From positions 1-34,488 of the forward strand of contig JAEUJX010000232.1 of assembly GCA_016794545.1 (NCBI GenBank): a DNA stretch of 34,488 nt, written 5' to 3'. Shown piece after piece: positions 2,332 through 28,015 of the stretch. The DNA is from Myxococcales bacterium (lineage in GTDB: Bacteria; Myxococcota_A; Polyangia; Haliangiales; Haliangiaceae). The notes under the pieces were generated by a model. That model had not been told where the DNA came from. It searched no databases and saw only the letters and a program-made list of their open reading frames with translations. Made by a program: the position numbers and the translations under genes. Each line of letters begins with the position of its first letter. The first letter of the stretch is position 1.

Positions 2332-3504
<1,173 letters not shown>

Positions 3505-4951: not shown

Positions 4952-4985
4952 CTGTCAGGCCTGCCTGGTACTGAACGGATGTTCC
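4952..4985 (+). promoter_or_regulatory. SOS promoter of imuA with LexA-type box
   Basis: GAAC-GGAT-GTTC (4973-4984) is a perfect GAACN4GTTC palindrome, and the flanking CTGAAC matches the half-site of the Myxococcus LexA consensus as I recall it (CTRHAMRYBYGTTCAGS and its complement). A possible -35 CTGTCA lies at 4952-4957, 34 nt before the ATG at 4986. The box ends 1 nt before the ATG and there is no Shine-Dalgarno sequence. This places the likely transcription start at or next to the start codon. Confidence 0.65.
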
Positions 4986-5774
4986 ATGACCAAGGACCTT
5001 CGCGATCTGCTCGCCCGCGCCACCGCCCGCGCCACCGCCACGGCGGCCTCGGCGGCGACGACCGCGAGCGCGAAGGTGCTGCGGCTCGAGGATCTCCGGC
5101 CGGCGCAGGAGGAGGAGACCGCCGCGAGCTGGTCACTCGCCACGCTACGCGGTCGGCTCGTCGAGCTGTCCGCGCGCGGCGCGACGGCGGCGCTGACCAC
5201 CGCCGCCGAGCTCGTGCTCGAAGCACAGCGCGCGGAGGATCCGGTCGCGTGGATTATCCCGGCGATCGAGCTACGCGAGTCACACACCACTTCCGGCGGT
5301 GCTTCGCGGCCCGGCGGGCCGGGCCTTGCGCCCGTAGATCCGCGCTTCTCCGATCGCACCGGCACGTTCTATCCGCCGGATCTCGCGGAGACCGGCATCG
5401 ATCTCGCCGCGCTCGTCGTGGTGCGCGCGCCATCGGTGGTCGCGTGCGCGCGTTCGGCCGAGCGCCTGCTCCGCTCGGGCGCGTTCGGCCTCGTCGTCCT
5501 CGATCTCGCCGCGGTTTCCCTCGATCGGTGGCCGGATCAGACCTTGGGCCGTCTGGTCTCGCTCGCGCAGGCACACGACGCCGCGGTCGTGTGCATCACC
5601 GAGAAGACGCCGGAGACCGGCTCGCTCGGCTCGCTGGTGTCGCTGCGCGCCGAGGCGTTGCGTGCGCGCCGCGATGGCGGCGAGTTCGAGGTGACGATCC
5701 GCGCGCTCAAGGACAAGCGCCGCGGTCCGGGCTGGTCGCATCGCCTGAAGGCACGCGGTCCGTCGGGGTTGTAG
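4986..5774 (+). CDS. imuA: ImuA-like RecA-fold mutasome protein
   Basis: This is 262 aa from the ATG directly after the LexA-type box. ImuA is the SOS-induced RecA-like accessory protein that works with ImuB and DnaE2 in translesion synthesis. Residues 55-90 (LRGRLVELSARGATAALTTA, then AELVLEAQ and PVAWI) align in pattern with the first strand, P-loop and helix of RecA. The loop reads ARGATAALTT, so the Walker A Gly-Lys-Thr is absent. A second strand ends FGLVVLDLAAVSLDRW (about 167-182), at the Walker B position. The basic tail RALKDKRRGPGWSHRLKARG is typical of the family. The call is strengthened by imuB and dnaE2 further along the same strand with matching boxes. The stop is TAG; no partner gene follows within the same operon. 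Confidence 0.75.
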   Translation: MTKDLRDLLARATARATATAASAATTASAKVLRLEDLRPAQEEETAASWSLATLRGRLVELSARGATAALTTAAELVLEAQRAEDPVAWIIPAIELRESHTTSGGASRPGGPGLAPVDPRFSDRTGTFYPPDLAETGIDLAALVVVRAPSVVACARSAERLLRSGAFGLVVLDLAAVSLDRWPDQTLGRLVSLAQAHDAAVVCITEKTPETGSLGSLVSLRAEALRARRDGGEFEVTIRALKDKRRGPGWSHRLKARGPSGL

Positions 5775-7511: not shown

Positions 7512-8297
7512 TCAGCGCGCCGAGGGCGGCGGGCCGCCGAAGCCCGCCTCGACGGTGGCGATGTCCTCCGCCGAGTAGTACTTCGATTGCACCTCGTGCA
7601 TCTGCGGCCGGGTGAAGACCTCCGCGCGCGGGCGAGCGATCGCGTCGGCGATGATCGTCGCGACCTCCTCGACCGGCTGCGCGCCCGGCAGCGCACGCGA
7701 GTCCATCCCCCCGTGCAGCGCGTTCTTGCCGAAGTCGGTCGCGACGACGCCGGGCAGGACGGTCGTCGCGTGGATGTCGGGGAACGGCCCGCGCAGCTCG
7801 ACGCGCAGGCTCGCCATCAGCGAGTTCACCGCGGCCTTGGCGGCGCTGTACGCGGCGCGCACCGGCGTGAACGGGATGCGGCCGAGCATCGAGGACACGG
7901 CGATCAGCTGGCCCTTCTTCTGCCGCTGGAAGTGCGGCAGCACCGCCTGGATCGCGTGGAACACGGACTTGTAGTTCGTGGTCATCATGTCGTCGAGGTC
8001 GGCCTCGGTGAGCTGCGAGGGCACGCGCGTGATGCCGCGGCCGGCGTTCGCGACGAACACGTCGAGCCGGCCGAACGTCTCGAGCGCGCGGGCGACGAGC
8101 CGATCGTTGTCGGCGCGCGACGTGACATCCGCGGTGACCGCGAGCGCGGACGGGCCGAGCTTCTGGGCGACCGCGCCGAGCGCATCGGCGGTCCGAGAGG
8201 CGAGGACGACGCGCGCGCCGCGCGAGACGACGACCCCGGCGAGCGCCGCGCCGATGCCCTGCGACGCGCCGGTGATGACGATGACCTGGTCCCTCAT
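7512..8297 (-). CDS. short-chain dehydrogenase/reductase (SDR)
   Basis: This is 261 aa from ATG 8297, a classical SDR with NAD(P)-dependent oxidoreductase activity on an unknown substrate. The cofactor loop TGASQGIG is at residues 9-16 and NAG at 84-86. The active-site Asn is in TTNYKS (108), Ser at 135/136 and Tyr150-x3-Lys154 in AAYSAAKAAVNSL. The length is normal for the family. The position after the first strand reads LASRT, and Arg here is often taken as NADP preference. The extreme C-terminus GGPPPSAR lies in the first repeat unit, so the gene end was the seed of the downstream array. It is divergent from imuB with 88 bp between the starts. Confidence 0.9.
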   Translation of the reverse strand: MRDQVIVITGASQGIGAALAGVVVSRGARVVLASRTADALGAVAQKLGPSALAVTADVTSRADNDRLVARALETFGRLDVFVANAGRGITRVPSQLTEADLDDMMTTNYKSVFHAIQAVLPHFQRQKKGQLIAVSSMLGRIPFTPVRAAYSAAKAAVNSLMASLRVELRGPFPDIHATTVLPGVVATDFGKNALHGGMDSRALPGAQPVEEVATIIADAIARPRAEVFTRPQMHEVQSKYYSAEDIATVEAGFGGPPPSAR

Positions 8298-8347
8298 GCG
8301 GCGAGCCTAGAGGGAGATCGACGGGATCTCTCCGGATTAACCTGCGG

Positions 8348-8385
8348 GATTGACAGGGCTTATCGCATAGCGGAACACTTGTTCA
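8348..8385 (+). promoter_or_regulatory. SOS promoter of imuB with LexA-type box
   Basis: A perfect -35 TTGACA (8350-8355) lies 36 nt before the GTG start. GAAC-ACTT-GTTC (8373-8384) is a perfect GAACN4GTTC palindrome. The 17-mer CGGAACACTTGTTCAGT fits the Myxococcus LexA consensus as I recall it at 15 of 17 positions. The box covers where the -10 should lie (AACACT, 18-nt spacer) and ends 1 nt before the start codon. There is no ribosome-binding site, which suggests a leaderless transcript. Confidence 0.75.
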
Positions 8386-9918
8386 GTGCCGCGTGTCGCC
8401 TGCGTCGATCTCCCCGCGCTGCCGCTGCAGCTGGTGTGGCGCGGCGAGCCGGCGCTGAAGGCGGAGGGCTGCTCGGTGGCCGTGATCGACGAGGACCGGC
8501 CGCAGGGCACGGTGCTCTGGGCGTGCGAGCGGGCGCGCGCGACCGGCGTGCTGATGGGGCAGCGCTACGCGCACGCGCTGTCGCTGTGCGGCGGGCTGCG
8601 CGCGCGCGTGGTGCCGCCGGAGCAGATCGAGGCTGCGATCGTCGAGCTGCGGAGAGCGCTGCACGCGCTGTCGCCGAGCGTCGAGGTCGGCGAGCCCGGC
8701 ACGTTCTGGCTCGACGGCGAGGGGCTCGAGCGGATCTTCGTCGACGGGCGCACGCCGGAGGGCACGGCGTGGGGGATGGCGATTGCGCGCGCGATCGCGG
8801 ATGCAGGCCTCGTGGGCGCGATCGTCGTCGGGTTCTCGCGGTTCGCGACGTACGCGATCGCGCGCGCCACGCGGCACGGCGTGACCGTGCTGCGCGCGGA
8901 TGCCGACGAGCGCGACGCGGCGGCGCGCGTTCCACTCGCGCGGCTCGATCTGGATCCGAAGCTGCGCGACTCGCTCGCGCGGCTCGGTGTGACGACCGTC
9001 GGGCAGATGGTGCGGCTGCCCGGCGGCGGCATCCTCGAGCGCTTCGGCAAGGAGGCGCACCGGCTCTACCAGCTCGCCGCGGGCGAGCGCTGGGATCCGC
9101 TCGTGCCGCTCGCGCCGCCGGAGGCGCCCGACGAGCAGGTCCTGCTCGACGACGAGGACGACGACGTCGAGCGGCTGATGTTCGTGATCAAGGCGCCGAT
9201 CGATCGGCTGCTCGATCGGCTCGCGGCGAAGGGGCGCGCGCTGGTCGCGCTGCACCTCGAGCTCGCGCAGAAGCACGCGGTCGGCAAGATCGAGCTGCGG
9301 TCGGACTGCATCAAGCCGGCGACCGCGACGCTCGACGCGCGCGTGCTCCTCCGGCTCGTGCACCTGCGACTGTCGGGCATGCCGCCCGCGGCGCCGGTCA
9401 ACGCACTGCGCGTGTGGGCCGACGACGCGCCGGCGTCGCGCGAGCAGCTCGCGCTGTTCGCGCAGCGCCCGCGCCGCGACCTGCGCGCCGCCGACGAGGC
9501 CATCGCGAAGCTGCGCGCGGAGCTCGGTGACGACGCGGTCGTGCGGCCGGTGCTGCGCGACGGCCACCTGCCCGAGGCGAGCTTTGGCTGGGAGCGCCTC
9601 GTCCATGTCGTCGCGGCGCGCCCGCGCGAGGTGCGCGTGCGGCCGCTCGTGCGCCGGCTGCTCGCGCGGCCGCAACCGCTGCCACCGCAGGCGCGCCAGG
9701 TCCGCGACGACGGCTGGCTGCTGTCGGGCCTCGAGCACGGCGCGGTCGTGCGGATCCTCGGGCCCTACATCGTGTCGGGCGGGTGGTGGGCGCAGCCGGG
9801 CGCGTCGGGCGGCGCGCATCGCGAGTACCATTATGCCGAGCTGCGGCGCGGGGACTGCCTGTGGGTCTACTACGACCGCAATCGTCGGCGCTGGTTCTGG
9901 CAGGGTGCTGTCGAGTAG
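8386..9918 (+). CDS. imuB: ImuB, catalytically inactive Y-family polymerase-like protein
   Basis: This is 510 aa from the GTG that follows the LexA-type box. ImuB is the mutasome hub that links ImuA and DnaE2 to the beta clamp. The N-terminus VACVDLPALPLQLV keeps the shape of the Y-family first strand. The second catalytic site, normally SxDE, is replaced by SVEVGEPGTFWLDGEG (about 104-119), so polymerase activity is not expected. A helix-hairpin-helix region follows near LARLGVTTVGQMVRLPGGGI. Residues 354-358 are QLALF, matching the QLxLF clamp-binding motif. The C-terminal block is the family-typical GPYIVSGGWW followed by REYHYAEL, CLWVYYDRNRRRWFWQG. Its last bases were copied in the downstream tandem duplication. 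The stop is TAG. Confidence 0.92.
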   Translation: MPRVACVDLPALPLQLVWRGEPALKAEGCSVAVIDEDRPQGTVLWACERARATGVLMGQRYAHALSLCGGLRARVVPPEQIEAAIVELRRALHALSPSVEVGEPGTFWLDGEGLERIFVDGRTPEGTAWGMAIARAIADAGLVGAIVVGFSRFATYAIARATRHGVTVLRADADERDAAARVPLARLDLDPKLRDSLARLGVTTVGQMVRLPGGGILERFGKEAHRLYQLAAGERWDPLVPLAPPEAPDEQVLLDDEDDDVERLMFVIKAPIDRLLDRLAAKGRALVALHLELAQKHAVGKIELRSDCIKPATATLDARVLLRLVHLRLSGMPPAAPVNALRVWADDAPASREQLALFAQRPRRDLRAADEAIAKLRAELGDDAVVRPVLRDGHLPEASFGWERLVHVVAARPREVRVRPLVRRLLARPQPLPPQARQVRDDGWLLSGLEHGAVVRILGPYIVSGGWWAQPGASGGAHREYHYAELRRGDCLWVYYDRNRRRWFWQGAVE

Positions 9919-9923
9919 GCTCG
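9886..9923 (+). repeat. 38-bp repeat, left copy (imuB 3' end)
   Basis: Bases 9886-9923 are identical to 10745-10782. This copy spans the last codons of imuB (RRWFWQGAVE) and its TAG. It marks the left edge of a tandem duplication with an offset of 859 bp. Confidence 0.9.
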
Positions 9924-9928
9924 TGGGC

Positions 9929-10708
9929 GTGGGGGACTCCGAGGACGCTCGCACCTTCGGCACCGCCGCGCCCGACTCACCGGTGACCCGCGCGGACTTC
10001 GAGCGCGCGCTGCGCGCCATCAACACGAACAACATGCTGCTCCGCGATCAGGTGCTCCAGCTCGCGGCGCAGGTGGTCGTGCTCACCGAGGAGCTCACCC
10101 GCCGCCTCGACGGCGTCGAACCGGGCCAGCCGTGGACGCCCACCGAGGCCACACCGGCGACGATCGAGGAGGCGCTCGCGCGGGCCACGCCCGACGTGCT
10201 GCACGTCGTGCGCGGTAACGACGCGCGGTCCACCAGCGGCACCTCGTTCGACCTCGGCGGCGACAAGTACGACGAGCTGCCGGCCGACGTCCCGTGCGGG
10301 GAGTTGCTCCCGCTGTGCCACGCACGGTGCTGCGCGATGCGATTCTCGCTGTCGACGCAGGATCTCGACGAGGGCATCATTCGCTGGGACTACGGCCAGC
10401 CCTACGTGATCCGCCAGCGGGGGAGCGACGGCTACTGCGTGCACAACGATCCGGACACGCGGTTCTGCACGGTGCGCGAGGCGAGACCGCGGGTCTGCCG
10501 CAGCTACGACTGCCGCGACGACGCGCGGGTCTGGCTGGACTACGAGGCGCGCATCCCCGCGCCACTAACCTCCGAGCCATCCGAGGAGCCGGTCACGTTC
10601 GATCTGCTCGCTCGCGCGCGGACGCGGACCACGGCGGTCATGGTCGAGCACCTCGGGCTGGGAGCGACGTACCCGGACCAGGAGCCGAAGCGCGGCCCGA
10701 AGCCGTAG
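9929..10708 (+). CDS. CxxxCC-type metal/iron-sulfur binding protein, copy 1
   Basis: This is 259 aa from GTG 9929, chosen because the second copy has a GTG at the same place (VGDSEDxRT). An N-terminal ~100-residue helical part (RADFERALRAINTNNMLLRD, coiled-coil-like) precedes a Cys cluster of YkgJ/UPF0153 type: LCHARCC, then YCVHNDPDTRFCTV and RPRVCRSYDC. That is C-x3-CC, C-x8-C, C-x8-C-x4-C. Such clusters bind zinc or an iron-sulfur centre; the biochemical role of the family is poorly known. It starts 10 bp after imuB, so it may be co-transcribed with the mutasome gene and SOS-induced, though it has no box of its own. The end reads PKRGPKP. Confidence 0.75.
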   Translation: MGDSEDARTFGTAAPDSPVTRADFERALRAINTNNMLLRDQVLQLAAQVVVLTEELTRRLDGVEPGQPWTPTEATPATIEEALARATPDVLHVVRGNDARSTSGTSFDLGGDKYDELPADVPCGELLPLCHARCCAMRFSLSTQDLDEGIIRWDYGQPYVIRQRGSDGYCVHNDPDTRFCTVREARPRVCRSYDCRDDARVWLDYEARIPAPLTSEPSEEPVTFDLLARARTRTTAVMVEHLGLGATYPDQEPKRGPKP

Positions 10709-10744
10709 CGCGCTCGGCGCGGCGCTCGATGCCGGTCGGCGCGC

Positions 10745-10782
10745 CGGCGCTGGTTCTGGCAGGGTGCTGTCGAGTAGGCTCG
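10745..10782 (+). repeat. 38-bp repeat, right copy (imuB 3' vestige)
   Basis: Identical to 9886-9923, this copy repeats the imuB ending TGGTTCTGGCAGGGTGCTGT and its stop, although no imuB frame precedes it. It shows that copy 2 arose by tandem duplication of a unit beginning inside imuB. Confidence 0.9.
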
Positions 10783-10787
10783 GGGGA

Positions 10788-11579
10788 GTGGGGGACTCCG
10801 AGGACGATCGCACCTACGGTACGGCGCCGCGCGACGCTCCGGTGACGCGCGCGGATCTCGAGCGCGCGATCCGCAGCCTGCACACGCACGACATGCTGAT
10901 CCGCGATCAGCTGATCCAGCTCGCGGCCCAGGTCGTCGCGCTGACCGACGAGCTGACGCGCCGGCTCGACGGCGTCGAGCCGCAGCCCGCGCCGCCGCAG
11001 ACGCCGGCCCAGGTCATGCCGATGACGATCGAGAACGCCGTCGCGCTGACGACGCCCGAGGTCCTCGTGCGGGTGCGCGCGAGCGACGCGCGCTATGACG
11101 CCGGCGTGTCGTTCGCCATGGACGACACCGGCGACAAGTACGAGGCCACGCCGTCGACGCCGCCGTGCGCGGAGCTGATCCCGATCTGCCACGCCCGCTG
11201 CTGCAAGCTCCGGTTCGCGCTGTCCACGCAGGATCTCGACGAGGGCATCATCCGCTGGGACTACGGCCGGCCGTACATGATCCGCCAGCGCTCGAGCGAC
11301 GAGCGCTGCGTGCACAACGATCCGGAGACCCGGTTCTGCACCGTGCACGCGGTGCGCCCGAAGATCTGCCGCACGTATCACTGCCAGGACGACAAGCGGA
11401 TCTGGACCGACTACGAGGCGCGCATCCCGGCGCCCGAGCCGTTTCCGAGCGTCCCCGAGCGCGAGTTCGATCTGATGGAGCGCGCGCGCGTGCGGAGCCA
11501 GGCGATGTGGCAGGAGCACCACGCGATCACCGAGAGCTACGCGGAACAGGATCCGCGGCGCGGTCCGAAGATCGGTTGA
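10788..11579 (+). CDS. CxxxCC-type metal/iron-sulfur binding protein, copy 2
   Basis: This is 263 aa from GTG 10788, a diverged paralogue of the preceding gene. It has the same layout: coiled-coil-like RADLERAIRSLHTHDMLIRD, then ICHARCCKLRFALSTQDLDE, CVHNDPETRFCTV and KICRTYHC. All seven Cys of copy 1 are kept. The central linker (QPAPPQTPAQVMPMTIENAV) and the C-terminal helix differ most; the core DLDEGIIRWDYGxPYxIRQR is almost unchanged. The retained cluster argues that both copies are functional. It converges with the GAF-domain gene, whose stop lies 3 bp downstream. Confidence 0.8.
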   Translation: MGDSEDDRTYGTAPRDAPVTRADLERAIRSLHTHDMLIRDQLIQLAAQVVALTDELTRRLDGVEPQPAPPQTPAQVMPMTIENAVALTTPEVLVRVRASDARYDAGVSFAMDDTGDKYEATPSTPPCAELIPICHARCCKLRFALSTQDLDEGIIRWDYGRPYMIRQRSSDERCVHNDPETRFCTVHAVRPKICRTYHCQDDKRIWTDYEARIPAPEPFPSVPEREFDLMERARVRSQAMWQEHHAITESYAEQDPRRGPKIG

Positions 11580-11582
11580 CGC

Positions 11583-12782
11583 TCAGCGCGCCCGGCGCAG
11601 GCGCTCGATATCGGTCGGTGCCGGGTGCACGAGCACCGCGCCGCTGTCACCGTCGACGGCGAGCAGGTCGCCGGGGCGGACCCAGCCGAACAGACCGGGG
11701 ACGTCGCTGACGACGGGCAGGCTCGCCGCGCGCGCGACCGCGATGGCCGCGGGCGCCACGGCGTCGCTCGCGACCAGCGCGGACGCGCCGCGCGCGACGG
11801 CGGCGATCGCGATGAACGCGTTGATCCGGTCGGCGATCCAGATCGACCCGGGGCGCAGCGAGCGCGGATCGCCGAGCAGCACGCACAGCTCCTCGACGTC
11901 GGCGACGCGATCCGCGGACTCGTGCACCGTGCCGGTGCGGTACGGCGCGCGCGCGTACTCCTTCGCGACGGCGCGCAGACCGTCGGGCTGGCGCTCCGCG
12001 GCGACGAGCCGCTCGCGCAGCCGCGCATCGGAGAGCAGCAGCGCGAACCGATCGAGCGCGGCGCCGACCGCGGGGACGGTGCTGTCCGCGAGCCTCTTGA
12101 TCGCGCGGCCGAGGTCCTCGCGCAGCCGCCCGAACGCGCGCTCGAGCTCGATCGGCGGGGCGCCGAGCGCGGTGGTCGTCGGCACGATGCCGGCGCGGCC
12201 GAGCACGGCGCCGGGGACGTGCGCGAGCCCGGAGAGGCGCGCCGAGCGGACGGCGGACGCGAGGCGGCGCTCGATCGCGAGCGTGATCGGGGCGCCGAGC
12301 GCGGTCGCCAGCGTGACCTCCTCGGAACCGAACGGCTTCGTGCGCCGCTGGAGCACGAGCACGCCGAGCACGGCACCCGCACCGATCAGCGGCACGCCGA
12401 CGAACACGGGGAAGCGCTCCTCGCCGAGGCCGGGCACCGCCTTGTACGCGGCCTCCGCGGCGGCGTGCGCGGCGGAGACCGGGCGCATGCACTCGGCGAC
12501 CAGGCCGGTGATGCCTTCTCCGACCATCAGCGTCGTGCCGATCGCGCTGTCGGCGAAGCCGTGGTTGCCCCGCATCACGAGGTGGTCGTCCTCGCGGACG
12601 TACACGCTGGCGATGTCGACGCCGGTGATCGCGGCGAGCTCGTCGCACATCGCGCCGAGCATGGCTTCCATCGCTCCGTCGTGCGCGGCGAGCTCGATCA
12701 GGCGGAGGATGCCGTCGACGCCGCGCTCCCCACGGTGATGGACCTGGATGATCGATCCACTCCGCACTTGCGATCGCGACAT
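11583..12782 (-). CDS. GAF-domain protein related to PtsP, with decayed phosphohistidine domain
   Basis: This is 399 aa from ATG 12782. Residues ~20-180 form a GAF domain: LIELAAHDGAMEAMLGAMCD, DIASVYVREDDHLVMRG and GVPLIGAGAVLGVLVLQRR. The middle (about 200-320) resembles the PEP-utiliser N-terminal helical region, and the end (about 330-395) the swivelling phosphohistidine domain: ASALVASDAVAPAAIAVARA, LPVVSDVPGLF, PGDLLAVDGDSGAVLVHP. In PtsP/enzyme I this domain reads 'TSHxAILAR' with the phosphorylated His; here the corresponding DAVAPAAIAVAR has no His. The PEP-binding TIM barrel is also missing. A sensory or allosteric role without phosphotransfer is inferred. Starts and neighbours give no operon partner. 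Confidence 0.7.
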   Translation of the reverse strand: MSRSQVRSGSIIQVHHRGERGVDGILRLIELAAHDGAMEAMLGAMCDELAAITGVDIASVYVREDDHLVMRGNHGFADSAIGTTLMVGEGITGLVAECMRPVSAAHAAAEAAYKAVPGLGEERFPVFVGVPLIGAGAVLGVLVLQRRTKPFGSEEVTLATALGAPITLAIERRLASAVRSARLSGLAHVPGAVLGRAGIVPTTTALGAPPIELERAFGRLREDLGRAIKRLADSTVPAVGAALDRFALLLSDARLRERLVAAERQPDGLRAVAKEYARAPYRTGTVHESADRVADVEELCVLLGDPRSLRPGSIWIADRINAFIAIAAVARGASALVASDAVAPAAIAVARAASLPVVSDVPGLFGWVRPGDLLAVDGDSGAVLVHPAPTDIERLRRAR

Positions 12783-12850
12783 GCCTCGAGCGTGACACGC
12801 GCCATGTTTCTCCCGCGTTTCGCGGTCGCAACTCCTGGCACCTCGGCGCG

Positions 12851-13684
12851 CTACCGGGCCTGCGTCAGGGTCACCGAGAGGCCGCCGGTGTTGTCGGAAT
12901 ACGCGCCTGGCGGGCCCTGGAACGAGAACGCGTCGGCGAAGCCGAGGTAGAGGCGCGTCGCGCCGGGCGGGATGACGAACCGCTGCTGGAGGCCCGAGCG
13001 CGTGGTGCCGTCGCCGATGAAGAACGTCTGGCCGAGCGCGGGCGAGAGCTCCGCGAACGAGGTGCCCTGCGCCGCGTCGGAGAAGTCGAGGCGGGCGGGC
13101 GGGCGCACCGGGTTCGCGTTGCCGAGGAACACGCCGACGAGGAACTGCGTCCGCTGGTGATCGACGATGCCGGCGATGCCGTTCGCTGCGAGGATGTCGG
13201 TGTCACCGCCGGCGCAGGTGCCGCCGTCGGCGCCCGCCTGCTCGCCGGCGCCGGCGCAGCCGACCTTGCCCTTCACCGACGAGAACGTGATGTAGCCGCC
13301 GTTCGGCACGAGTGTGAGGCGGACGGGCAGACGGCCGCCGCGTCCCGGATCCGGCGCGCCGAGGTTCGCGGAGAAGATGTCGGCGCGGCCGTCGATCATC
13401 GCGCTCGCGGGCACGCCGAGCGCGAGCGTGGCGTCGGTCGACAGCGAGTGCCTGGGCATCGGCTTGCCCGGATCGATCGGGAGGTCGGAGGTCGTGTCGA
13501 TCGGCGCGGCCGGCTTCACGTCGGGAGTCCACGGCGGGGCGTAGACCGCGGTCGTGCCCGGGGCCCGTGCGGCCGGCGGAGGCTGCTGTGGTTGGGGCCG
13601 CGCTCCGACCGGCGTGGTCGGCCGCGGGCCGCATGCCGCCGCGAGCGAGACCACCGAGATCACCACCGCCCGGACCGTTCGCAT
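12851..13684 (-). CDS. lipoprotein with PA-IL/lectin-like C-terminal domain
   Basis: This is 277 aa from ATG 13684, giving the signal [18 protein letters not shown] with a lipobox (LAAAC) at Cys18. A further upstream start would add 17 residues before the signal and is rejected. A Pro-rich linker (about 25-60) leads to a beta-rich domain: [60 protein letters not shown] and [12 protein letters not shown]. The 'FFIGDG ... [11 protein letters not shown] ... YxDNxG' pattern is that of galactose-binding PA-IL-like and related Ca-dependent lectin folds. It is a probable surface carbohydrate-binding lipoprotein. It is divergent from dnaE2 with 65 bp between the starts. Confidence 0.7.
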
Positions 13685-13712
13685 CGCGGCGACGATACTG
13701 GACAACTCCGGA

Positions 13713-13749
13713 GATTGACAGGCGTTGTCGAACACTGAACACTCGGTCA
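13713..13749 (+). promoter_or_regulatory. SOS promoter of dnaE2 with LexA-type box
   Basis: GATTGACAGG (13713-13722) is identical to the -35 region of imuB. TTGACA starts 35 nt before the GTG. GAAC-ACTC-GGTC (13737-13748) ends 1 nt before the start. The 16-mer from GAAC through GTG matches that of imuB at 14 of 16 positions. One half-site is imperfect (GGTC). No ribosome-binding site is seen. A second GAAC (13730-13733) lies just upstream. Confidence 0.7.
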
Positions 13750-17070
<3,321 letters not shown>

Positions 17071-26092: not shown

Positions 26093-28015
26093 ATGATCAG
26101 ACAAACGATCGCGAGCGCGCTGCTCGCCACCATGGCCCTCGCGTGTGCCGGTGAAGACGGCAAGGACGGATCGAACGGCACCGACGGCACCGACGGGGCC
26201 GACGGCACGAACGGTCAGAACGGCACGAACGGGCAGAACGGCTCCAACGGCTCCAACGGCACCGATGCCACGCTGAAGGTGCTGAGCTTCTCGCCGGTCA
26301 CCGCACCGGTGACGGACGCGGACAAGCGCCGAGTGCTCGTGTCGAGCGAGGCGCTCGTCAACAACTCGCTCGTCGGTCTCCAGTACACGACCGTCGCGCG
26401 CAGCGGCGACACGTTCGGCACCGCCGTGTTCGGCCGGATCGTCGACAACACGGGCATGCCCGTGCGGCAGCAGGACGGCTCGGAGTTCGTGTCGCCGTCG
26501 AACGACTTCTCGTCGATCCTCGACGTCGGCAACCAGCTCTACGAGATCACGCAGTTCGAGACGCAGCCGGGCGCGATGTACATCAGCCAGCTGACGCAGA
26601 GCGCGACCGGCGTGCTGTCGATGACCAGCACGCGGCCGGTGGACTTCTCGAGCGTCAACGGGCTGTGGAACCCGTGCGCGAGCAGCGTGACACCGTGGAG
26701 CACGCACCTCGGATCCGAGGAGTACCCGCAGGACGCGCGGCAGACCGAGACGGCGACGACGGTCGCGCAGGTCACCGGCAGCTCGAACGTCAACATGCTG
26801 CGCTACTTCCGGCTCGACCCGGCGACGGTCACGGTCGCCGCCGCGAAGGCCGCGTTCAAGCCGTACCACTACGGCTACCCGGTCGAGGTGTCGGTCGCCT
26901 CCGGCGGCGCGACGAGCGTGAAGAAGCACTACGCGATGGGCCGCGGCGCGATCGAGCTCGCGTACGTCATGCCGGATCGCAAGACCGTCTACATCACGAG
27001 CGACGGCACCAACAACGCGTTCACGATGTTCATCGCGAAGACGGCCGGCGATCTGTCGGAGGGCCGGCTGTACGCCGCGCGGTGGTTCCAGACCAGCCCG
27101 GCGGGCGCGCCGAACGGGAGCGCGGACCTGTACTGGATCGAGCTCGGCGGCAACGCGAAGAACGCCGACGTGAAGGCGCTCGTCGACGGCGGCATCACGT
27201 TCTCGCAGATCTTCGACACGGCCACGATGGCACCCGACGGCACGTGCCCCGCGGGCTTCAAGGGTGTGAACACCGACTCGGTGACGCGCGCCGAGTGCCT
27301 GAGCCTCAAGACCGGCATGGAGCTCGCGGCGTCCCGGCTCGAGACCCGGCGCTACGCGGCGTACCTCGGTGCGACGACCGAGTTCCGCAAGATGGAGGGC
27401 ATCACGTACGACGCCGCGGGGCACCGCCTGTACGTCGCGTTCTCCGAGGTCAACAACGGCATGGTCAATGGCCACGCGACGCGCGATCTCGGTGGTCCGA
27501 ACCACATCCGCCTCGCCGAGAACGGGTGCGGCGCGGTGTACGAGCTGACGATCGGCAAGGATGTCGTGATCGGTACGGACTACGTGGCCTCGGACACGAA
27601 GGCGCTGCTCGAGGGCATCTGGCTGCAGGACCCGGCGAACATGAACCCGTATCCCGCGGGCAGCCCGTACGCGGGGAAGAACGAGTGCGCGGTGAGCGCG
27701 ATGGCGGCACCGGACAACCTGTCGTTCGTCCCCGGCTACCGCACGCTCCTGATCGGCGAGGACGCGGGCAGCGAGCACCAGAACGACGCCGTGTGGGCGT
27801 ACGACCTCGAGACCGGTCGCCTCGACCGGATCATGACGACGCCGTACGGCGCCGAGTCGACCGGCGTCTACTTCTATTCGAACATCCGCGGCCGCGCGTA
27901 CATCAAGGCGAACGTCCAGCACCCGTTCGGCGAGACCGATCAGACCATGATGATGGATCCGACGGAGCTGCGCTCGTACACCGGGTACATCGGCCCGCTG
28001 CCGGCGATGAACTGA
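26093..28015 (+). CDS. PhoX-like (DUF839) lipoprotein with collagen-like N-terminus
   Basis: This is 640 aa from ATG 26093. The signal MIRQTIASALLATMALAC has a lipobox, followed by 12-13 Gly-x-x triplets (GEDGKDGSNGTDGTDGADGT and on to about residue 58). The rest resembles the PhoX/DUF839 beta-propeller: CASSVTPWSTHLGSEEYPQD, TEFRKMEGITYDAAGHRLYV, AFSEVNNGM and LSFVPGYRTLLIGEDAGSEH, then YDLETGRLDRI and PYGAESTGVYFY. PhoX enzymes are Ca/Fe-dependent phosphatases normally exported by Tat; this one has no twin-arginine and looks Sec/lipoprotein exported. Phosphatase activity is therefore likely but unproven. The stop overlaps the next gene's ATG by one base (TGATG), implying translational coupling to a di-heme protein. 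Confidence 0.8.
   Translation: MIRQTIASALLATMALACAGEDGKDGSNGTDGTDGADGTNGQNGTNGQNGSNGSNGTDATLKVLSFSPVTAPVTDADKRRVLVSSEALVNNSLVGLQYTTVARSGDTFGTAVFGRIVDNTGMPVRQQDGSEFVSPSNDFSSILDVGNQLYEITQFETQPGAMYISQLTQSATGVLSMTSTRPVDFSSVNGLWNPCASSVTPWSTHLGSEEYPQDARQTETATTVAQVTGSSNVNMLRYFRLDPATVTVAAAKAAFKPYHYGYPVEVSVASGGATSVKKHYAMGRGAIELAYVMPDRKTVYITSDGTNNAFTMFIAKTAGDLSEGRLYAARWFQTSPAGAPNGSADLYWIELGGNAKNADVKALVDGGITFSQIFDTATMAPDGTCPAGFKGVNTDSVTRAECLSLKTGMELAASRLETRRYAAYLGATTEFRKMEGITYDAAGHRLYVAFSEVNNGMVNGHATRDLGGPNHIRLAENGCGAVYELTIGKDVVIGTDYVASDTKALLEGIWLQDPANMNPYPAGSPYAGKNECAVSAMAAPDNLSFVPGYRTLLIGEDAGSEHQNDAVWAYDLETGRLDRIMTTPYGAESTGVYFYSNIRGRAYIKANVQHPFGETDQTMMMDPTELRSYTGYIGPLPAMN

Follow-up and report, generated by a model that had tools for sequence, protein, structure and literature searches.

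The window analysed here is a 34,488-nt stretch of DNA, contig C777 (JAEUJX010000232.1) of the 8.49 Mb, 780-contig genome of a Myxococcales bacterium. It carries three genes of the ImuA-ImuB-DnaE2 translesion mutasome, all on the forward strand and with unrelated genes between them. The first (4986..5774) encodes an imuA-like, RecA-related accessory protein whose score with the ImuA model NF033429, 28.8 bits, falls short of the cut-off of 150; it occupies the same operon position as the imuA of relatives, where its orthologues directly precede imuB. The second, imuB (8386..9918), encodes an inactive-type Y-family polymerase homologue, identified by PF00817 (E = 6.7e-07) and by a family alignment, in the consensus of which the DinB-type SxDE motif is replaced by PGTFWLD. 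The third, dnaE2 (13750..17070), encodes an error-prone DNA polymerase, assigned by NF004225 (1311 bits; cut-off 939) and by its Pfam domains. Each gene has its own predicted LexA-type operator, and in all three the operator ends on the opening base of the start codon, which is also the predicted transcription start (+1).

Upstream of imuB, a TTGACA -35 element (8350..8355) is followed by the predicted operator CGGAACACTTGTTCAG (8371..8386), which matches the palindrome CTGAAC-N4-GTTCAG at 11 of 12 positions and shares its final G with the GTG start codon. The putative -10 element, AACACT (8374..8379), lies within the operator behind an 18-nt spacer and occupies positions -12 to -7 relative to the GTG. 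The dnaE2 promoter has the same layout: TTGACA (13715..13720), a 17-nt spacer and AACACT (13738..13743) inside the predicted operator CTGAACACTCGGTCAG (13735..13750; 11/12), which again ends on the G of the GTG. A first-pass annotation of the window had described TTGACA 35–36 nt before both GTG codons, two boxes identical at 14 of 16 bases and no Shine–Dalgarno (SD) sequence. All of these were borne out: TTGACA precedes the GTG by 36 nt in imuB and by 35 nt in dnaE2, GAACACTTGTTCAGTG (8373–8388, imuB) and GAACACTCGGTCAGTG (13737–13752, dnaE2) differ at 2/16 positions, and none of GGAG, GAGG, AGGA or AAGG occurs in the 20 nt before the imuA, imuB or dnaE2 start. The box also lies in the -10 region, as had been stated, but rather than stopping 1 nt short of the start codon, the palindrome is better read as ending on the first base of that codon. 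The general architecture of the two promoters is thus TTGAC-N17/18-AACA[C/G]T-6 nt-GTG, in which the 17–18 nt spacer and the 6-nt discriminator place the canonical +1 on the GTG.

The third member, imuA, was overlooked in the first-pass annotation. A mismatch-tolerant pattern search flagged positions 4969–4984 and led to the predicted operator CTGAACGGATGTTCCA (4971..4986), which matches the palindrome at 10 of 12 positions. Its last base is the A of the ATG, and therefore all three mutasome genes share the fusion of operator and start codon. A -35-like CTGTCA (4952..4957), of which TGTCA is kept in most imuA promoters of the genus, is separated by 17 nt from a -10-like ACGGAT (4975..4980) located 5 nt before the ATG. 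The latter is the weaker assignment: the register between -10 element and start is exact for imuB and dnaE2, while both hexamers, AACACT and ACGGAT, are non-consensus.

The start codon of imuB is forced. An in-frame TAG stop (8368..8370), 18 nt before the GTG, excludes any start upstream of 8386, no other start codon is present, and an invariant Cys in the alignment is codon 6. For imuA, the ATG at 4986 is the only in-frame start over 140 codons upstream. In dnaE2, further in-frame starts lie upstream at 13633, 13588 and 13567; the GTG at 13750 is supported by a conserved N-terminus from codon 3 onwards and by in-frame stops at -18 in several relatives. Throughout the genus, upstream in-frame stops leave a single start codon in many members.

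The combination of -35 element and box is rare. With up to three mismatches, the combined pattern was found at three sites in the window, against 0.49 expected, and none of 100 shuffles reached three; genome-wide, it occurred free of mismatches only at imuB and dnaE2, with two more sites at two mismatches. Among 1759 regions upstream of ATG or GTG codons in the window, that of dnaE2 was the closest to that of imuB (36/52; mean 14.5, sd 2.9), and the imuA start region was among the next closest (23/52).

Alignment of the same promoters from related genomes showed that the fusion of box and start codon is kept in the genus. The comparison set comprised 30 genomes of the family, several of them incomplete metagenome bins, and the distances from box to start were tallied by hand from the alignment and search outputs. 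The start codon lies within 4 nt of the box end in 29/36 boxed imuA, imuB and dnaE2 promoters of the genus and exactly on it in 18/36. For imuB, it coincides with the box end in 7/12 genomes (≤4 nt in 9/12), for dnaE2 in 8/13 (≤4 nt in 12/13) and for imuA in 3/11 (≤4 nt in 8/11). The -35 element is likewise kept, as TTGAC[A/T] in all 10 aligned imuB promoters, and is followed by a gap of 14–15 nt to the box in most cases. Nearly all imuB and dnaE2 boxes have the centre A[C/G]T[T/C], which yields AACA[C/G]T at -12 to -7. A few members of the genus have 6–19 nt between box and start; in two of these, SD sequences are present at imuB (G010: 19 nt, with GGAGG before the GTG; G001: 17 nt, with GGAG). 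A rule by which a distant box goes with an SD sequence and a near box with none fits these two imuB genes and lexA, but was dropped as a general law, because SD-less leaders occur in other genera. Further upstream of the imuB -35 element, CCGGATTAA (8325–8345) is conserved across the genus; it may be part of the promoter of the divergent dehydrogenase gene or an imuB upstream element.

The organization of the three genes differs elsewhere in the family. In other genera and in G007 and G017 (loci compared include L025/L049, L024/L050 and those of genus g6), imuA and imuB, in some cases with dnaE2, form an operon that has a single LexA box, placed in front of imuA. Three separate LexA promoters, as in most of the genus, are therefore probably a derived state. 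This history bears on a different explanation for the likeness of the imuB and dnaE2 promoters, namely that one promoter was copied when the ancestral imuA-imuB-dnaE2 operon was split. Such an event would concern the origin of the promoters and is compatible with the mechanism proposed below. It would account for three separate promoters here where relatives have a single box, and for the presence of ATTGACAGG in both promoters, in this genome as well as in G005. Across the genus, however, the likeness is limited to the -35 element and the box, while spacers and upstream flanks differ; the spacer lengths differ rather consistently (18 nt in imuB, 17 nt in dnaE2); and ATTGACAGGG is also present at lexA. 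We consider copying during the split to be a rather doubtful origin, and a recent duplication between imuB and dnaE2 was not favoured because of the same restricted likeness. The imuA box of G017 is the 16-mer GAACACTTGTTCAGTG, the same as the imuB box here.

If the mutasome messages are leaderless, they are in numerous company. The background of leaderless and SD-led starts was sampled in 357 kb (contigs C700–C739 and the window; about 190 genes from crude script calling). Of the first starts, 10% had a TANNNT hexamer at exactly -12, compared with 0.1% of internal decoys, and SD sequences were not enriched. Counted per gene, TANNNT stood in the leaderless register in 19.8% (1.5–8% in a null of displaced windows), and a strong SD sequence was present in 13.7% (null 8.6–13.7%), that is, without measurable excess. 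For a second genus of the family, the TANNNT and SD fractions were 17.7% and 19.4%. A genome from the same class gave 8.6% and 24%, and one from a different class of the phylum gave 4.1% (null 6–8%) and 27%; the leaderless signature is thus weaker within the class and absent from the genome of the other class. The pattern TTGAC-N17-19-TANNNT-N5-7-RTG occurred at 18 sites genome-wide and its reversed control at none; with the start moved 8 nt further away, six rows were returned, representing five distinct sites. We considered that the peak might be an artefact of in-frame stops, since first starts follow stops. The nearest in-frame stop at -12 was TAG in 16 cases and TGA in three, although TGA is the prevailing stop at positions further upstream; the peak also persists for TA[CT]NNT, which is impossible as an in-frame stop; the artefact was therefore rejected. 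In the window, the leaderless register is likewise found at the genes 2332–3504(-), 7512–8297(-), 9929–10708, 10788–11579, 12851–13684(-) and 26093–28015, which include those divergent from imuB and dnaE2. Leaderlessness thus looks common in this genome, so that the leaderless reading of the mutasome genes is likely but not peculiar to SOS genes. The prediction of the first-pass annotation that the mRNA begins at the GTG is supported by this signature together with the promoter geometry, the forced starts and the lack of SD sequences. Its view of leaderlessness as a special coupling at imuB and dnaE2 did not hold up, given the apparently leaderless neighbours and the same arrangement at imuA.

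Several observations weigh against a LexA-repressed, leaderless promoter within the box. Scans for standard sigma-70 consensus promoters found none at imuB or dnaE2, since AACACT and TATAAT have A-11, T-7 and few further bases in common; here the -10 element was assigned from its geometry and conservation. At -12, AACACT has no T, and the imuA hexamer is a poor match that lacks A-11. Some leadered genes in relatives (in other genera, and dnaE2 of G015) have no evident SD sequence, and therefore the absence of an SD sequence by itself is weak evidence in this family. Finally, the LexA-dependence of dnaE2 is disputed in Myxococcus xanthus (PMC9705874 vs. PMC12288472), where induction of dnaE2 and ImuB was reported to be at least partly LexA-independent (PMC12288472).

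Some of these points lend weight to an alternative in which the LexA operators are real but the transcripts are leadered, with transcription starting upstream of the box, LexA acting as a roadblock, and SD-independent translation of a leadered message at the GTG. The non-consensus hexamer would fit such an arrangement, as would the imuA boxes of other genera, which are found 20–45 nt before the start without a clear SD sequence, and the gaps of 6–19 nt in the few genus members mentioned above. The conserved TTGACA at 14–15 nt from the box, on the other hand, suits a promoter that lies within the box rather than before it, and the genome-wide signature indicates that this register is commonly used. 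We therefore regard leadered transcripts as unlikely. Under the leaderless reading, AACACT keeps A-11 and T-7 and coincides in position with the TANNNT peak of the genome; the A at -12 would result from the sharing of the -10 element with the LexA half-site GAAC, and is probably compensated by the good TTGACA.

The palindrome itself is a credible, well-supported candidate for a LexA operator, in agreement with the LexA control proposed in the first-pass annotation. With at most one mismatch, CTGAAC-N4-GTTCAG occurs at only seven sites in the 8.49 Mb genome, and a reversed control pattern at none. Besides imuB and dnaE2, these seven include dinB (C505) and recA (C187), each again with one mismatch. 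The M. xanthus LexA box, CTRHAMRYBYGTTCAGS, is matched at 15/17 positions by imuB and dnaE2, a score that only three of the ≈69,000 window positions attain, and at 12/17 by imuA; in M. xanthus, a full match was reported for the boxes of recA2 and lexA only (PMC9705874). The genome has a single canonical lexA (TIGR00498, 217.7 bits; cut-off 110.95), and in nearly the whole family the lexA promoter, TTGACA-N18-TAC[C/G]GT, lies between two GTTCAG half-sites. Although the putative imuA operator matches at only 10/12 positions, a chance resemblance or the site of another repressor is very improbable, in view of the rarity of the palindrome, its co-occurrence at dinB, recA and damage-tolerance genes, its fit to the M. 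xanthus motif and the half-sites at lexA.

Elsewhere in this genome, dinB has a leader with GGAGG and lexA probably one with GAAGG, and the recA box lies ≈250 nt before the recA ATG. In nearly all members of the family, lexA has a leader, mostly with an SD sequence of the AAGG/GGAGG type. Since an in-frame GTG is found inside the lexA box region, 12 codons before the ATG, this leader is likely but not certain. In G011 (L325), the lexA leader is seemingly lost: the promoter reads GTTCAGTATG, and its second half-site is immediately followed by the ATG.

The explanation that we favour, and hold to be likely, is that imuA, imuB and dnaE2 each have a LexA-repressed, sigma-70-type promoter without an untranslated leader. 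The TTGACA-like -35 element would lie outside the operator, and the palindrome would take in the -10 element and the discriminator, together with the first start-codon base, at which transcription begins. Because the palindrome overlaps the core promoter, bound LexA would be expected to block open-complex formation. Upon DNA damage, cleavage of LexA would free the promoter, RNA polymerase would begin the message with the G of GTG, or in imuA with the A of ATG, and the 5'-terminal start codon would be recognized without SD pairing. The DNA sequence is the basis for inferring LexA binding and induction, the exact positions of +1 and the -10 element, and the mode of translation. That the coupling of operator and leaderless start tightens control in the off state, as the first-pass annotation suggested, might follow from this layout.

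The separate parts of this arrangement are known singly: LexA boxes over promoters, a LexA-regulated mutasome, a leaderless SOS gene and leaderless genes in delta-proteobacteria. LexA-regulated imuA-imuB-dnaE2 mutagenesis cassettes have been described in Caulobacter, Pseudomonas and Mycobacterium (PMC8072749), with the same genes and a LexA-type operator at the promoter. Those cassettes form one operon or are linked to lexA, whereas here there are three separate promoters, each with an operator that includes the first base of the start codon. In M. tuberculosis, lexA itself is leaderless (PMC2897130), an SOS gene in which transcription and translation starts coincide, as predicted here for the mutasome genes; in the present genome, by contrast, lexA seems to be leadered with an SD sequence. 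Leaderless genes with TANNNT -10 boxes are known in M. tuberculosis (PMC3898074), and 8 of 33 delta-proteobacterial genomes were predicted to contain leaderless genes, at 5.7–20.6% (PMC3160421). These have the -10 element at -12 to -7 of the start codon, as predicted for the genes described here, and like them no SD sequence; the present genes differ in having A for T at -12 and a TTGACA -35 element. Zheng et al. named no myxobacteria in the main text, and the literature searched, which omits most subscription journals, held no report of an operator fused to a start codon and nothing relevant on leaderless genes in Myxococcota. What is new is the conservation of this fusion at three genes, together with the SD-poor Kofleriaceae genome in which it is found.

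If the proposed mechanism is correct, ≈16 bp would hold an operator together with a core promoter element and the start codon, in a layout conserved at three genes of one pathway. The locus would then be a natural system for studying how LexA, RNA polymerase and leaderless translation share bases. The many apparently leaderless genes in this lineage (Myxococcota, Kofleriaceae), with no visible SD excess, also affect start-codon annotation and operator prediction there. One could speculate further, with little confidence, that the Kofleriaceae genus largely exchanged SD-led for leaderless initiation and that, as the mutasome operon was split into three, each operator absorbed the -10 element and the +1 along with the first start-codon base. 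The mutagenic polymerases would in that case be made only from leaderless messages, which stressed or damaged ribosomes could favour, providing a second, translational gate beyond LexA.

A possible further SOS gene is a radical-SAM-like gene with an apparent intein (L293:1501–1540; G000:C98:4295–4334), which has TTGACG, the LexA-like half-site ATCCGTTCAG and TACGGT upstream of its GTG. The dnaE2 gene of G005 (L133:11629–16191) carries an in-frame intein (PF14890 and LAGLIDADG_3) after approximately residue 806, and split matches within one open frame suggest the same in dnaE2 of G002, G003, G004, G013 and G028; the dnaE2 of the window has none. At the other end of imuB, a tandem duplication (9888–9945 and 10747–10804) comprises the last ≈35 bp of imuB and the start of the next gene, which encodes a CxxCxxCC (zinc/iron-chelating) protein, repeated before a second paralogue. 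In both copies, the imuB stop codon TAG contributes to a -10 box, TAGGCT, that stands in the leaderless register.

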